A DNA stretch of 57,479 nucleotides from a candidate division WOR-3 bacterium. Its GTDB lineage: Bacteria; Hydrothermota; Tepidihabitantia; Tepidihabitantales; JBDRVQ01. The stretch spans positions 1 to 57,479 of the forward strand of contig JBDRVQ010000008.1 in the NCBI GenBank assembly GCA_039801905.1, in the 5' to 3' direction. Below the pieces are notes generated by a model, which was given only the letters and a program-made list of their open reading frames with translations, had not been told where the DNA came from and made no database searches. This document shows positions 46,075-54,706 of the stretch, one piece after another; position 1 is the stretch's first letter; each line of letters opens with the position of its first letter. A program made the translations under genes and the position numbers.

Positions 46075-46347
<273 letters not shown>

Positions 46348-49660: not shown

Positions 49661-52600
49661 TCATTTTAAGATAATTATCTTGTAAGCATCCTTTTCTTTC
49701 TCTTCCAGATTTAAGAAGTAAATGCCGGAAGGGAGATTCTTCAGCGCTAAAGACCGAAATTCCGGTTTCAAGAGAAACTCTTTCACCCTTTTCCCTAGTG
49801 CATCGTAAAGAATCGCCTTCTTATTTTCCTTGTGTTTTAGGAGATAGGCAATCTCCAAATTTCCTTTGAGAATTGTCGGATAAATCCGGAAAGATTCATC
49901 TATCGGATTCCGATAAGAGACCTCTTTTTCCCAAATACCGACTTGTGGTTCTCCGGTCTCAAAAGAGATTGCCCTGCCCGAAACTAAAGGTGCCTGTGCC
50001 CGATGGTAGGTACCGTTGTAAAGCCCGCAGATACCACGAGTGGAGGTATTATTCTCAATACCAACAGTATTGGAGACATAGTTATTACTTGAATAATACT
50101 GGAAGACAATTCGGTTATCACCGGTCGGCGTGGGAATGGTCGTATCATAGACGATTATCTCAAACTTATCCCATTGGCTATTAGGACTGAAATAGTGAAC
50201 CGAATCCCATTCAATAATAAATCTATGGGAGTCTGGTTCGTAGAGATACCAAATTCTATTACCATAAGGTGGATATAAGTCATCCCAGTTGATACAGATC
50301 ATAGAATGGGGATTGGTAGAGGTTGGGTCCGGGAGTTGCTGGTTGGAATAAGCAGTGGAGGTTGTCCTTCCCGGCATAATCCAACCGTTACCGCAGATAG
50401 AAAGCGATTCGGCAAATCTCTGCCCATAATACTTAAAGACAAAGGGTAAAGGAATTCTTATTGTCTGGTCATCCGAGGTGATCGGGAGTTGGGTTCCTCG
50501 GTTGCGCAATTCAATCCAACGGTATTTTGGATGTTGGCGATAGAGGGTATCAATATTGTCATATGCCCAGTAGATCGCTGGCTCACCATCAGGAATTGGG
50601 TCGGTAATCGTGATTTCGCCAACTTCTAAATTAAATCTCAAACTATCGGTATAACCGGTCCCGGAAAGGTAAAGGGAAAAACTGATAACCCTTCCCCTCG
50701 GTGTCTGAGGATTGGCGGAGAGGATAAACTTATCTCCATAATTTCCCCTTTGGGAATCTGGTGGAATATTACCAAAGGCGCCAAAAGAATCGGAGATTGT
50801 GAGATACGAATCTTGGGTTCTTAAAATCCCTGAGACATTATTGGCAGAGACTCTTCCCATATTCTTTAAGATGACAACCAGACTTACTGTCTCCCCCGGG
50901 TCTAAACGTTGGTTATTATTACCCGAAGAGTCATAGATAATTTTATCCTGGAAGATAAGGGCTGGGGCATTGGTAATCACCCCTTCAATCGCATCAATCT
51001 CAAAACCACCAGTTGGTCCGTTTGTGCCATCACCGTCATCAACAATTTTAATGTAGCGGGCGCTTCCTTGTCCGGCTCTTGATAAATCAAAAGAAGAGGT
51101 TCCGGTATCAACCCCGCAGAAAGACCAAGGTCCATTCCAGTTCATTGAGACAAAGACCGAGCAACCTTCTGGGTCAGTGTCTTCTTCAAAGATTGTGAAA
51201 TCACTACCCGGACCATTGATGATTAAATTCTGCATATCAAAGACCGCCCAACCACCAACCCCTAAGGAAAGACGCCGGTTATCCCTTCTCCCTAAGGAGA
51301 AGGCAGTTAGGGAAGTATTGGAATGGTTAGATGGGTCTTCAATATTACAGGAGACGCATTTGTAGGCAAAGATGGGGATTGTCGTATCAGGGAATAAGGG
51401 GATATCTAAGATGGCATAGGTATCCGCCGGCACATTCACGCCGGAGATAATTTTTTCCCGATAACCATTAGCGACAACCCGGACCGTATAACTACCTTGA
51501 TGGAGATAACGGAAGTAATAACCGTTACTATCGGTATAGATTGGGAAGTTTGGTGGGTCAGTGATGACAATCGCCTTGACCGGTTGATTGGTTAGAGAGT
51601 CATAGACCCGACCCCGAAGACCATAGGCACATCTTCTCAATATTTCTAAGTTGGCGCTTAAATTCTTTCGGCAGATGGTATCAATGCGGGAGGTATCTGG
51701 AACATGGGGTGAGCACAACTCAACCGCCAAACAGAACATACCTTCCGCGCCGTAGGCATAATCCGAGGAACAACCGTGGGTCTCATATAACCCCCGGCAG
51801 ATTTGAAAGGCGGGATAGCCAGTATAAGAACTGTACCTCTGACAGAGAAAAGCCATAAAGATACTGTCATAAGGGGCATTGGTGGAATATCCCCAGGGCC
51901 ACATCGCGGCTTCGGTTCCGGAATGGTAAGTAGTATAAATGACAAATGGTGCCCTTTGGGTGAAGTTTCTGATTGCCAGAATCTCTGGTTGGGAAAAAGG
52001 AGCCGGGCTTCCCCAACCGGTATCCCAGAGATAGCCGTAATCTCGGTTTAGGTCAACACCGTTGGCATTACCTCTGCTTCTTGCCACCATCCCATCCGGA
52101 TTGACAATCGGGATAATCCAGATTTCCCTCGTATTCACCAAATTGGTAATCAAAGGGTCAACCCCGTAATTTAATAAGAGGTGCCGGACTAAATATAGGC
52201 AAACCTCAGTACCGATATTCTCATTACCGTGGGTTGTGGCATCCCAAAGGATTCTTGGTTCGTGTTCGTCAACTCCGGCATTATCGGTAATTTTCATCGC
52301 CAATAAAACCCGATTCTGAACCGAACGGCCAATCGTATCTAAGCGGACCAAATTTGGATTATTTAAGGCGATGATGTTAAAAGTATCAACAATCTCCTGG
52401 TAAGAATGGAATCGACCAAAATTTACTCCTGGTGCCTGCCGGGCGTGATACTCTCCCATATCCGAAATGAGAACTTCCGTTGGATAACTTTTAGCGAAAT
52501 CAGAAAACTTATCTTCGCCAATTGCGCCGATGAGATAATCAGAACCCACTTCGTAGATATAAAGCCCTTTATCCATCAATTCTTTAATCTTTTCTCTGGG

Positions 52601-52690
52601 GGAAGGGATTGAGACCTTAATCAACTTTTCCTTCTCCGCCCAAGAGAATTGGAAGATTAGGAGAAGAAAAATAAAGAAAAATCTTTTCAT
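49661..52690 (-). CDS. M14 zinc carboxypeptidase, secreted, with C-terminal sorting domain (paralogue 2)
   Basis: 1009 aa; GGAGG lies 5 nt before the ATG. Signal peptide KRFFFIFLLLIFQFSWA. The M14 domain has TTHGNENIGTEVCLYLVRHL, NPDGMVARSRGNANGVDLNR, the third zinc His in YTTYHSGTEAAMWPW and the catalytic Glu in CLAVELCS. Then come the carboxypeptidase-regulatory, discoidin-like and beta domains in the same order as paralogue 1, and a sorting domain (FRIYPTILKGNLEIAY, LPSGIYFLNLEEKEKD). The two genes are alike throughout, so they arose by duplication. Confidence 0.9.
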   Translation of the reverse strand: MKRFFFIFLLLIFQFSWAEKEKLIKVSIPSPREKIKELMDKGLYIYEVGSDYLIGAIGEDKFSDFAKSYPTEVLISDMGEYHARQAPGVNFGRFHSYQEIVDTFNIIALNNPNLVRLDTIGRSVQNRVLLAMKITDNAGVDEHEPRILWDATTHGNENIGTEVCLYLVRHLLLNYGVDPLITNLVNTREIWIIPIVNPDGMVARSRGNANGVDLNRDYGYLWDTGWGSPAPFSQPEILAIRNFTQRAPFVIYTTYHSGTEAAMWPWGYSTNAPYDSIFMAFLCQRYSSYTGYPAFQICRGLYETHGCSSDYAYGAEGMFCLAVELCSPHVPDTSRIDTICRKNLSANLEILRRCAYGLRGRVYDSLTNQPVKAIVITDPPNFPIYTDSNGYYFRYLHQGSYTVRVVANGYREKIISGVNVPADTYAILDIPLFPDTTIPIFAYKCVSCNIEDPSNHSNTSLTAFSLGRRDNRRLSLGVGGWAVFDMQNLIINGPGSDFTIFEEDTDPEGCSVFVSMNWNGPWSFCGVDTGTSSFDLSRAGQGSARYIKIVDDGDGTNGPTGGFEIDAIEGVITNAPALIFQDKIIYDSSGNNNQRLDPGETVSLVVILKNMGRVSANNVSGILRTQDSYLTISDSFGAFGNIPPDSQRGNYGDKFILSANPQTPRGRVISFSLYLSGTGYTDSLRFNLEVGEITITDPIPDGEPAIYWAYDNIDTLYRQHPKYRWIELRNRGTQLPITSDDQTIRIPLPFVFKYYGQRFAESLSICGNGWIMPGRTTSTAYSNQQLPDPTSTNPHSMICINWDDLYPPYGNRIWYLYEPDSHRFIIEWDSVHYFSPNSQWDKFEIIVYDTTIPTPTGDNRIVFQYYSSNNYVSNTVGIENNTSTRGICGLYNGTYHRAQAPLVSGRAISFETGEPQVGIWEKEVSYRNPIDESFRIYPTILKGNLEIAYLLKHKENKKAILYDALGKRVKEFLLKPEFRSLALKNLPSGIYFLNLEEKEKDAYKIIILK

Positions 52691-52760: not shown

Positions 52761-52788
52761 TTGACAAGGAAAATTTTTCTCTTATTCT
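52761..52788 (+). promoter_or_regulatory. Promoter of the tRNA-Ser locus
   Basis: TTGACA (52761-52766), 16-nt spacer, TATTCT (52783-52788). It lies ~46 nt before the tRNA-Ser 5' fragment, so the original tRNA gene probably used it. The intact copy further on must now be reached through the GIY-YIG cassette. Confidence 0.7.
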
Positions 52789-52834
52789 TAAAGGTGATTT
52801 TGGCGAGATGCCGTTTCTAAATTTTTCTAATTTG

Positions 52835-52914
52835 GGAGAGGTGTCCGAGTGGTCGAAGGAGCACGACTGCCCGCCTTCGGCGAGGTCTCGCCTCAAAGAG
52901 GCGGAGAAATCGTG
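52835..52914 (+). pseudogene. tRNA-Ser 5' fragment interrupted by a 36-nt palindrome
   Basis: 52835-52869 is identical to the first 35 nt of the intact tRNA-Ser at 53164, up to the first anticodon base. A 36-nt palindromic sequence (52870-52905) follows, then GAAATCGTG (52906-52914), the 3' anticodon stem. After that the match ends and the GIY-YIG gene begins, so the variable arm, T arm and acceptor 3' strand are missing. Confidence 0.85.
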
Positions 52915-52922
52915 GGTAAATT

Positions 52923-53258
52923 ATGTGGAGTGTTTATATTTTGATTAGTAATTTTAGTGGAAGAACTTATGTTGGCTGTAGCCAAGATGTGGCGAAAAGA
53001 TTAGCGATGCATAATGCGGGAAGAGTGAAATCAACCAGGAAATATCTTCCTTGGAAAGTGGTGTACCAAGAAGAGGTTGGTACCTATCAAGAAGCCCGCA
53101 AGAGAGAAAGATATTATAAAAGTTTTGCTGGAAGAAAAAGAATCAAAGAAATCGTAGAGAACTGGAGAGGTGTCCGAGTGGTCGAAGGAGCACGACTGGA
53201 AATCGTGTGTAGGGCCAAAAGCCCTACCGTGGGTTCGAATCCCACCCTCTCCGTTTAA
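52923..53258 (+). CDS. Small GIY-YIG endonuclease, read through into the tRNA
   Basis: 111 aa. The first ~80 residues are a minimal GIY-YIG domain: WSVYILISNFSGRTYVGCSQ carries the YIL...YVG pair, KRLAMHNAG the catalytic Arg, and YQEEVGTYQEARKRERYYKS the metal-binding Glu. The last ~31 residues (from about RGVRVVEGARLEIV) are read from the tRNA-Ser gene at 53164-53253, which it overlaps completely. Short GIY-YIG proteins are DNA nucleases found free-standing and in selfish elements; this one is flanked by broken tRNA halves, which suggests a cassette that inserts at tRNA-Ser. No Shine-Dalgarno site is strong. Confidence 0.8.
   Translation: MWSVYILISNFSGRTYVGCSQDVAKRLAMHNAGRVKSTRKYLPWKVVYQEEVGTYQEARKRERYYKSFAGRKRIKEIVENWRGVRVVEGARLEIVCRAKSPTVGSNPTLSV
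53164..53253 (+). tRNA. tRNA-Ser (GGA anticodon), intact
   Basis: 90 nt. Acceptor stem GGAGAGG with CCTCTCC plus G discriminator, D arm, anticodon stem CACGA/TCGTG with loop CTGGAAA (anticodon GGA, reads UCC and UCU), a long class II variable arm (TGTAGGGCCAAAAGCCCTAC) and the T arm (GTGGGTTCGAATCCCAC). All arms pair. CCA is not encoded. The whole gene lies inside the GIY-YIG reading frame. Confidence 0.97.
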
Positions 53259-53267
53259 TATGTTTAA

Positions 53268-53373
53268 GAAGGAGCACGACTGCCCGCCTTTGGCGAGGTC
53301 TCGCCTCAAAGAGGCGGAGAAATCGTGTGTAGGGCCAAAAGCCCTACCGTGGGTTCGAATCCCACCCTCTCCG
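53268..53373 (+). pseudogene. tRNA-Ser 3' fragment with the same 36-nt palindrome
   Basis: 53268-53282 (GAAGGAGCACGACTG) matches the D-arm end and 5' anticodon stem. The 36-nt palindrome follows (53283-53318, one base different from that at 52870), then the rest of the tRNA to 53373 is identical to the intact copy. The first ~20 nt (acceptor and D-arm 5' side) are missing. Joined to the 5' fragment it would give one tRNA-Ser with a 36-nt insert between anticodon positions 34 and 35. Confidence 0.85.
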
Positions 53374-53376
53374 TGG

Positions 53377-53550
53377 ATTTTCCCCAAACCCCGCTCAATA
53401 GGGGTTTTCACCCCTCTTGCGGAAAAAAAACCCTTGGTTTTTTTCCTGTCACCCCATTGGGGAAAATCCATTTTCCCCAAACCCCGCCGTGCTTTCGCAC
53501 CGCTATCGCTAACAATAGGGGTTTTCACCCCTCTTGCGGGAAAAAAACCC
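53377..53550. repeat. Duplicated palindromic intergenic repeat
   Basis: Two copies of a unit lie in tandem: ATTTTCCCCAAACCCCGC (53377 and 53470), then AATAGGGGTTTTCACCCCTC (53397 and 53514) and a poly-A stretch. The second copy holds an extra 26 nt (53488-53513) with a GTGC-TTTC-GCAC hairpin. AAACCCC/GGGGTTT can fold as a hairpin in each and the first may end tRNA transcription. GGGGAAAATCCATTTTCCCC (53459-53478) is a perfect palindrome, and GGAAAAAAAACC/GGTTTTTTTCC another. No gene is recognised here. Confidence 0.75.
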
Positions 53551-53569
53551 GTATTTTCCAAGATAGGCT

Positions 53570-54706
53570 ATGCTAATTGCTAAGAGACTTACCAAATTAC
53601 CCCCTTATCCTTTTAAGGTTCTTTATGAATTAAAGAAAAATTATAAAGGGGAAAAACTCATTGATTTTGGGGAAGGGAATCCGGATCTACCACCCCCAAA
53701 AGGGATTATCAATCGCTTAATCAAGGCATTGGCAAAGGTAGAGAATCATCGCTATCCCAATTATGAAGGACTCTTAAAAGCCCGAGAAGCGGTTGCCCAA
53801 TGGTATAAGAGAAGGTTTGGAGTCTTTTTAGACCCGGAAAAAGAGGTCTGCATGCTGATTGGTTCAAAGGAAGGGATTGCCCATCTCTTCTGGGCATTAG
53901 TCGGTCCGGGTGAGCGGGTGGCAATCTGCGACCCGTATTTTCCTATTTACCGGAATCAACCGATTTTGGCTGGTGCCCAAGTAAAATTTCTTCCTTTAAG
54001 GGAGGAGAATAATTTTCTGCCGGAGTTAGAAAAATTAAAGGGGAGTAAGATAAAACTCCTCTGCCTCAACTATCCCAATAACCCAACCGGGGCATTTGCC
54101 GATCAGAAATTCTATGAAGAGGTCATCTCTTGGGCACAAAAGGAAGATTTCTTTCTCTTTAATGATAATGTCTATTCGGAAATCTATTTTCAAGAACCCC
54201 CGCCTTCTCTTCTCCAAATCAAAGGGGCAAAGGAGAGGGCGATTGAATTCCACTCTCTCTCTAAGACCTTCAATATGCCTGGCTGGCGGCTCGGTTTTGT
54301 GGTGGGCAACTCGGAGATTATCTCCGCCCTTTTGCGCCTCAAACAGAATGTTGATACTGGTCCTTTTAATGCGGTTCAAGAGGCAGCAATTTTTGCTCTC
54401 AATAAGAGCGAAACCTACGCCCAAAGGATGAGAAAAATTTATGAGAGGCGTCTCTCCCTTTTTGTCTCCGGTCTAAAAGATTTGGGTTGGGAGGCAAAGA
54501 TGCCCAAGGCAACATTCTACCTCTGGCTCAAAGTGCCTAGTAAAGAAGATTCCCTCACCTTCGCCACCAACTTATTAAAAAATTATGGCATCCTCTGTGC
54601 CCCGGGTAGTGGCTTTGGTAAATTTGGGGAGGGTTATCTCCGTTTCTCCCTCACCGTGAAAGAAGAGGAGATAGAGGAAGCACTCCGGCGCCTAAAAAAG
54701 AGATGA
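53570..54706 (+). CDS. PLP aminotransferase, class I/II, LL-diaminopimelate aminotransferase-like
   Basis: 378 aa. It starts with LPPYPFKVLYELKKNYKGEK, then LIDFGEGNPDLPPP, typical of DapL/aspartate-type enzymes. PLP ligands: YPNYEG, SKEGIAHLFWALVGPGE, NYPNNPTGAF, DNVYSEIYF and the Schiff-base Lys in FHSLSKTFNMPGWRLGFVVG (~residue 230), with the C-terminal Arg in YLRFSLTV. The next gene is aspartate kinase with a 4-nt overlap, so a role in the lysine/diaminopimelate pathway is plausible. Other amino-acid specificities cannot be excluded. Confidence 0.85.
   Translation: MLIAKRLTKLPPYPFKVLYELKKNYKGEKLIDFGEGNPDLPPPKGIINRLIKALAKVENHRYPNYEGLLKAREAVAQWYKRRFGVFLDPEKEVCMLIGSKEGIAHLFWALVGPGERVAICDPYFPIYRNQPILAGAQVKFLPLREENNFLPELEKLKGSKIKLLCLNYPNNPTGAFADQKFYEEVISWAQKEDFFLFNDNVYSEIYFQEPPPSLLQIKGAKERAIEFHSLSKTFNMPGWRLGFVVGNSEIISALLRLKQNVDTGPFNAVQEAAIFALNKSETYAQRMRKIYERRLSLFVSGLKDLGWEAKMPKATFYLWLKVPSKEDSLTFATNLLKNYGILCAPGSGFGKFGEGYLRFSLTVKEEEIEEALRRLKKR

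Follow-up and report, generated by a model that had tools for sequence, protein, structure and literature searches.

Integrative islands and prophages insert into a tRNA gene, and the tRNA is reconstituted from element sequence. SegB, a free-standing GIY-YIG homing endonuclease of phages T4 and T6, cuts within tRNA genes at the motif RAWTSGAAC, and its activity leads to tandem duplication of the tRNA together with segB (PMC13096335, PMC2988022). In fungal mitochondria (for example of Glomus and Allomyces), mobile ORFs (mORFs) that encode a LAGLIDADG or GIY-YIG endonuclease insert into essential genes (atp6, atp9, cox2, nad3), carry a replacement for the severed gene part and leave the native part as a remnant (PMC3630166). 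GIY-YIG ORFs also occur in CPR rRNA genes, within inserts that are not group I or group II introns and that lie mostly at stem-loops; the authors judged GIY-YIG to fall outside spread by homing, and they do not mention tRNA (PMC11270868).

We analyzed a 57,479-nt stretch of DNA from a candidate division WOR-3 bacterium (the window), in which a GIY-YIG ORF lies among copies of a tRNA-Ser gene. From sequence comparisons, this locus quite probably belongs to a class of recurrent miniature mobile elements residing in tRNA genes, whose arrangement of about 300 nt is shared by many unrelated bacteria. The element looks like one that invades essential genes without killing the host, a kind largely undescribed.

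As with SegB, a GIY-YIG nuclease gene lies beside tRNA genes, and SegB is a strong precedent for the cutting half of the mechanism proposed below. However, SegB resides in phage tRNA clusters, whereas the present elements reside in single chromosomal tRNA genes. SegB has a larger homing-endonuclease architecture, and I-TevI also differs from the present protein, which has about 80 aa and lacks a separate DNA-binding domain. In the accessible parts of the SegB reports, neither a restored tRNA half nor a palindrome is described (PMC13096335, PMC2988022), and the association is not tied to isotype (PMC13096335), whereas the present lineages are isotype-bound. On our own reading, the SegB motif matches the T-loop consensus.

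The mORFs resemble the present element in that the displaced host part is carried along and the native part is left as a remnant (here, tRNA nt 1-35 duplicated around the ORF, with comparable duplications at many other loci). They differ in residing in protein-coding mitochondrial genes and carrying the C-terminal part, with a palindrome not mentioned in the accessible text (PMC3630166), whereas the present elements reside in bacterial tRNA genes and can supply either half. The CPR inserts likewise occupy an essential RNA gene, but one for rRNA rather than tRNA (PMC11270868). Compared to integrative islands, the present element has no integrase, spans about 330 nt and sits within a loop of the tRNA (D, anticodon or T), where a palindrome marks the junction.

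The tRNA-Ser locus and its nuclease gene

We found that three tRNA-Ser copies surround one ORF in the window (Table 1). The GIY-YIG ORF and an intact tRNA-Ser(GGA) are flanked by two remnants, one of the 5' part at 52835-52918 and one of the 3' part at 53268-53373; 14 nt separate the intact copy from the latter. Sequence comparison, ARAGORN, Rfam and Pfam together confirmed each piece that an earlier note on this DNA had listed, namely the 5' fragment, the GIY-YIG gene, the full tRNA-Ser(GGA) and the 3' fragment. The segment of about 60 nt that the note saw in both fragments is real (64 nt at 97%, far above chance), but its suggestion that the fragments join into one working gene does not hold, since they overlap and both carry a palindrome. 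Hence, rejoined remnants would not give a working tRNA, because each holds a palindromic insert in the anticodon loop. The note had described the shared segment without recognizing that it contains a 36-nt palindrome (P) at one point of this loop. P sits inside the anticodon, where it splits the first base from the second (nt 35|36), and its two copies are one mismatch apart.

Table 1. Features of the tRNA-Ser locus, in positions of the window
Feature	Coordinates	Strand	Basis or remark
Likely promoter of the resident tRNA-Ser gene	52761..52789	+	TTGACA at 52761, TATTCT about 16 nt on; consensus match only
Resident tRNA-Ser 5' part, nt 1-35; left flank of the insertion	52835..52869	+	Same sequence as nt 1-35 in the intact tRNA
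First copy of the 36-nt palindrome P, which separates nt 35 from nt 36; inferred left boundary of the element	52870..52905	+	Hairpin, -18.6 kcal/mol
Short copy of tRNA nt 36-48 separating P from the ORF; one mismatch	52906..52918	+	Sequence comparison
GIY-YIG nuclease ORF, 111 codons; nuclease domain about 52923-53165	52923..53258	+	PF01541
Inferred mobile element, 329 nt: P, copy of nt 36-48, ORF, tRNA nt 1-35	52870..53198	+	Repeats, G138/G137 pair, G149 tandem array
Intact tRNA-Ser(GGA): nt 1-35 from the element, nt 36-90 resident	53164..53253	+	ARAGORN; Rfam, 59 bits
tRNA-Ser 3' remnant: nt 21-35, P copy 2 (53283-53318), nt 36-90	53268..53373	+	Sequence comparison
Aminotransferase gene, neighbour; anchors the orthologous empty site in G006	53570..54706	+	Pfam PF00155

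The intact copy is the sole tRNA-Ser(GGA) in the genome tRNA list of this assembly (about 97% complete), and in the same list neither tRNA-Ser(GCT) nor tRNA-Ser(TGA) was found. Nucleotides 1-35 of the tRNA are present in two identical copies, one ahead of P (52835-52869) and one forming the 5' part of the intact tRNA (53164-53198). Since one gapless tRNA-Ser gene remains when 52870-53198 is taken out, the simplest reading is a 329-nt element inserted at nt 35|36. The right end of this element would replace the 5' part that was cut off and would rebuild the tRNA. A single insertion does not account for a second remnant bearing the same palindrome; this extra 3' remnant is probably an older scar or a solo insertion of P.

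We found no integrase or other plausible gene besides the GIY-YIG ORF, either in the 329-nt element or between the flanking peptidase and aminotransferase genes. An assembly artefact is unlikely, because the same architecture occurs in many independent assemblies, one of them a single-contig genome (locus L072). The tRNA promoter that had been claimed before the broken copy is there as a TTGACA/TATTCT pair, and the uninterrupted orthologous tRNA-Ser of genome G006 has a similar upstream stretch (TTGACA...TATTCTTAAAG).

The upstream neighbour of the tRNA locus (49661-52690, minus strand) encodes a large M14 zinc carboxypeptidase with a C-terminal Por_Secre_tail sorting domain. Downstream, the interval between the 3' tRNA remnant and the aminotransferase gene (53374-53557) contains a two-copy repeat (45 nt at 53396 and 53513, 91%) and inverted arms (53374-53387 and 53457-53470). 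Elsewhere in the window, positions 46081-46341 hold a bacterial large SRP RNA (Rfam RF01854, 151 bits).

The window ORF matches Pfam PF01541 with 53 bits (E 3e-14), above the cut-off, and residues Y5, G18, R26, H30 and E62 are invariant across 18 homologues. Its product is a bare GIY-YIG domain of about 80 aa followed by tRNA-encoded residues; no separate DNA-binding domain or modules were found in it, and its NCBIfam group I intron endonuclease score is far below the cut-off (21 vs 56 bits). SLX1 is longer and has further domains. By sequence profile, the nearest solved relatives are UPF0213 proteins and SLX1 (1zg2, 1ywl, 7wme), yet UPF0213-like clades in the phylum of the window are mostly not tRNA-associated.

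The reading frame has no stop ahead of the tRNA, continues across its full length and terminates at a TAA immediately downstream. The GIY-YIG ORFs are under purifying selection, strong in several pairs, with dN/dS of 0.03-0.19 in six pairs and of 0.37 and 0.48 in two close pairs. Carriage by a plasmid or phage was rejected, as the window protein had zero plasmid matches and a single weak match in an unannotated phage record.

Distribution, tRNA isotypes and empty sites

We compared 97 loci of small GIY-YIG ORFs, most from the phylum of the window, gathered partly by similarity to the window protein and mostly from fragmented assemblies, with 20 UvrC loci as controls. A tree was built from the GIY-YIG proteins of 95 of these loci (79 columns). 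Within the clade of the window protein, 35 of 56 members had a tRNA or tRNA fragment at most 160 nt away, all on the same strand; about 0.9% were expected from tRNA density (binomial 4e-57, relatedness ignored). None of the 20 UvrC controls, which cover mainly the upstream side, lay near a tRNA. Since the other 21 of the 56 clade proteins had no tRNA within 160 nt, the tRNA association is not universal. GIY-YIG genes beside tRNAs recur with many isotypes, including Ser and Leu, the two that the earlier note had singled out.

The other large clade, UPF0213-like, is mostly not tRNA-associated, and some of its members adjoin tRNA-Asn genes containing group I introns. Matches to RF00028 at L148, L018, L022, L068, L017 and L261 represent group I introns, apparently in tRNA-Asn genes; the tRNA-Asn halves are split at nt 35/36 and lie next to or near small GIY-YIG genes, some of them UPF0213-like.

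The tRNA-associated loci take two forms. Form A, with a remnant 5' part, the ORF and an intact tRNA in this order, was found in the window and at L050, L055, L132, L051, L131, L152, L149 and L054; form B, with an intact tRNA, the ORF and a remnant 3' part, was found at L058, L074, L076, L078, L142, L072, L061, L151 and, in Bacteroidota, L263. In form A, the ORF as a rule reaches the tRNA without meeting a stop codon; in about 15 loci the frame ends within the tRNA copy that follows, and in the window it ends just past the tRNA.

Using isotype labels that we curated after seeing the loci, we counted 8 isotype changes on the GIY-YIG tree among 31 loci (shuffles, 16-24). With syntenic loci collapsed, there were 8 changes among 25 loci, relative to a minimum of 14 in 500 shuffles. 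Each nuclease lineage keeps to one tRNA isotype. Same-isotype loci in different families have no neighbour genes in common, His excepted. Hence, the pattern does not reflect simple vertical inheritance.

The nearest relatives of the window protein are in Omnitrophota and likewise lie beside tRNA-Ser. Among the genomes behind three Omnitrophota loci, which our search covered, one carries a pair of these genes, located at tRNA-Ser(GCT) and tRNA-Ser(GGA), and a second genome carries a single gene, at tRNA-Ser(TGA). In the Bacteroidota genome G149, an intact tRNA-Arg(ACG) is preceded by a tandem pair of 294-nt units (99% identical). The 20-nt palindrome of this array and its position in the D loop match those of the Arg elements found in the phylum of the window.

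For the window, an uninterrupted tRNA-Ser locus, which the earlier note had hoped to find in relatives, is present in G006, where one tRNA-Ser(GGA) stands directly upstream of the orthologous aminotransferase gene. It differs from the window tRNA at few positions, nearly all in the variable arm. This empty site comes from another family of the same order, not from a close relative. Within one genus, tRNA-Arg(CCT) is plain in G137 and has about 308 extra nt in G138, with flanks 89-92% identical and tRNA nt 1-23 on both sides of the insert; the insert opens at the junction with the 20-nt palindrome CCTGCCTGCCGGCAGGCAGG and contains a GIY-YIG ORF. Hence, as with free-standing homing endonucleases, the GIY-YIG gene is present or absent at one and the same site both in the G138/G137 comparison (tRNA-Arg) and between the window and G006 (tRNA-Ser). 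At tRNA-Asp, an element is present in G054, and in G120 a decayed, ORF-less 3' remnant follows the intact tRNA; the G120 site looks like a scar after element loss rather than a pristine site.

The same-genus empty site, the Bacteroidota tandem array and the Omnitrophota copies at three tRNA-Ser genes suggest that the units are mobile. The earlier picture of a cassette that breaks a tRNA gene by means of a homing-type nuclease and supplies a working copy gains support from the G006 site, the G138/G137 pair and dozens of similar loci at other tRNA genes. It needs revision in two respects: the unit would not bring a whole second tRNA but a palindrome, the ORF and a tRNA 5' part that rebuilds the resident gene, and the nuclease is a member of lineages that are each bound to a single isotype.

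Palindromes and rival explanations

Relatives of P occur at several other sites of the genome, within longer hairpins of the type AAGTCGC[C/T]CGCC...GGCGGATAAGACTT. Hence, P is a member of a dispersed repeat family and was not made at the tRNA-Ser site. We examined G135, G137, G138, G142, G144, G145 and G149 for dispersed palindromes and found CCTGCCTGCCGGCAGGCAGG, with up to 1 mismatch, in 72-87 copies in three f37 genomes and in 32 copies in G138 (0 for the reversed control), and TCCGCCTNNGGCGGA in about 100 copies each in G135 and G138. Short perfect palindromes of these types number from tens to more than a hundred in some genomes, and other genomes have none. In G114, both TCCGCCTNNGGCGGA copies are in the tRNA-GIY array; similarly, both copies of the exact Arg palindrome in G149 are in its array, and variants with one or two mismatches are dispersed. 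Since both copies lie in arrays, the palindromes of G114 and G149 look like part of the element there.

When the second tRNA copies were aligned to the intact copy, most were found to hold a palindrome inserted in, or replacing, one arm. Its position is the D loop in Arg, the anticodon arm in Ser (window), Asp and Thr, around the anticodon in Asn, and the T loop or arm in His, Leu and other Asp elements; L053 is an exception to this pattern, and at L142 the palindrome lies at the edge of the remnant. An automatic palindrome score (perfect arm of 7 or more) was positive for 23 of 35 remnants, 5.6% of random windows and 12 of 45 intact tRNAs; because the stems of intact tRNAs score too, it separates remnants from them weakly. 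Hence, the insertion alignments are better evidence than this score.

We considered and rejected a functional short intron in the interrupted tRNA (fold computed), as the palindrome differs by locus and an intact copy normally adjoins. In the first 394 nt of L026 (genome G004), both tRNA-His copies around the GIY-YIG ORF have the T arm replaced by CCCGTTTCGGG, and no intact tRNA-His was seen in this stretch; the contig starts exactly at one of the copies, as a collapsed tandem array would predict. At L151 (G114, 796-1697), several tRNA-Asn 3' remnants with palindromes surround one GIY-YIG ORF at roughly regular spacing, an arrangement that resembles a scar array from repeated insertion.

The dispersal of same-sequence palindromes (CCTGCCTGCCGGCAGGCAGG, TCCGCCTNNGGCGGA and the relatives of P) is what one would expect if the palindrome were itself the mobile part, entering tRNA hairpin loops, with the GIY-YIG protein moving it, as RAYT does with REP, or helping to duplicate the tRNA; insertion would then be tolerated only where a second tRNA copy exists. 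Palindrome-only tRNA copies (L026, L059 and the 3' remnant of the window) also fit, and SLX1-like kinship would suit the cutting of hairpins or cruciforms. However, we think this explanation unlikely, given the confinement of TCCGCCTNNGGCGGA in G114 and of the exact Arg palindrome in G149 to the arrays. REP/RAYT and other small palindromic repeats likewise have short dispersed palindromes at the junction, but in the present loci a single palindrome has a fixed place in a tRNA loop and is accompanied by a GIY-YIG ORF.

An ordinary tandem duplication of the tRNA followed by decay, with the GIY-YIG gene as a passenger between the copies, is quite improbable. Although tRNA genes do duplicate and the remnants are decayed copies, this explanation is at odds with the same-strand adjacency in 35 of 56 homologues, with lineages that keep their isotype across different neighbourhoods, with ORFs ending right at tRNA nt 1 and with a 294-nt unit whose tandem repetition includes the ORF. 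The separate decay of three tandem tRNA genes, which the earlier note had named as grounds for giving up its reading, was not borne out either, since the GIY-YIG gene is found sandwiched in this way with various tRNAs and in various gene contexts. We give very little weight to a toxin or defence nuclease directed at tRNA, with a spare or decoy tRNA kept alongside; isotype-specific pairing of nuclease and tRNA is likewise expected for a tRNA cutter with a protective copy, but GIY-YIG enzymes are known as DNA nucleases (PMC2988022), and the tandem arrays, scars and empty/occupied junctions at one tRNA position indicate DNA insertion. A group I intron with a homing endonuclease in a tRNA gene is extremely improbable here: such introns are present at tRNA-Asn genes in the phylum, in some cases beside GIY-YIG genes of other subfamilies, but Rfam finds no group I intron (RF00028) at the window locus, at the gathering threshold or at E 0.1. 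What interrupts the tRNA there is a 36-nt palindrome, and the locus provides an intact tRNA rather than relying on splicing.

Proposed mechanism and significance

In the miniature mobile element that we propose, the GIY-YIG nuclease would break its cognate tRNA gene in a loop (in the window, the anticodon loop at nt 35|36), and repair would copy in a unit in which the palindrome and the ORF are joined to a 5' part of the tRNA itself. The 5' part of the element would join the resident 3' part, so that a working tRNA would always be left; in the mirror form at other loci, the element would carry the tRNA 3' part instead. Tandem arrays and scars would result if a site were hit again and again. 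Since the ORF has no stop codon before the tRNA, a cut by RNase P at tRNA nt 1 would leave a nonstop nuclease mRNA, and tRNA maturation and nuclease synthesis would compete. Self-protection is unaccounted for in this scheme, because the intact tRNA still carries the presumed target. The second palindrome-bearing remnant, the bare domain of about 80 aa with its UPF0213 and SLX1 kinship, and the 21 clade members that lack a nearby tRNA also speak against the proposal.

We advance a broader proposal tentatively. The loci may represent an undescribed mobile DNA of ~300-bp units, each bounded on one side by a palindrome and on the other by a tRNA-repairing half, and encoding a minimal SLX1/UPF0213-like GIY-YIG nuclease. 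The enzyme would recognize isotype-specific loops (or extruded hairpins), spread within and between phyla and perhaps be the source or mover of scattered palindromes. In an open-access library, we found no description of such elements in bacterial chromosomes. Taken by its parts, the element is a variant of free-standing homing-type elements; what is new is the combination of a palindrome end, a bare nuclease and an isotype-bound tRNA target.

If this reading is true, essential tRNA genes in several bacterial phyla would house some of the smallest autonomous-looking mobile elements known, and the problem of striking an essential gene would be solved by rebuilding that gene. A common class of tiny GIY-YIG proteins would gain a testable function, and tRNA remnants and tandem tRNA copies would have a possible origin. 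The elements would also offer a lead on what moves short palindromic repeats in uncultured bacteria, and a simple control circuit is predicted, in which maturation of the tRNA would deprive the nuclease mRNA of its stop codon.
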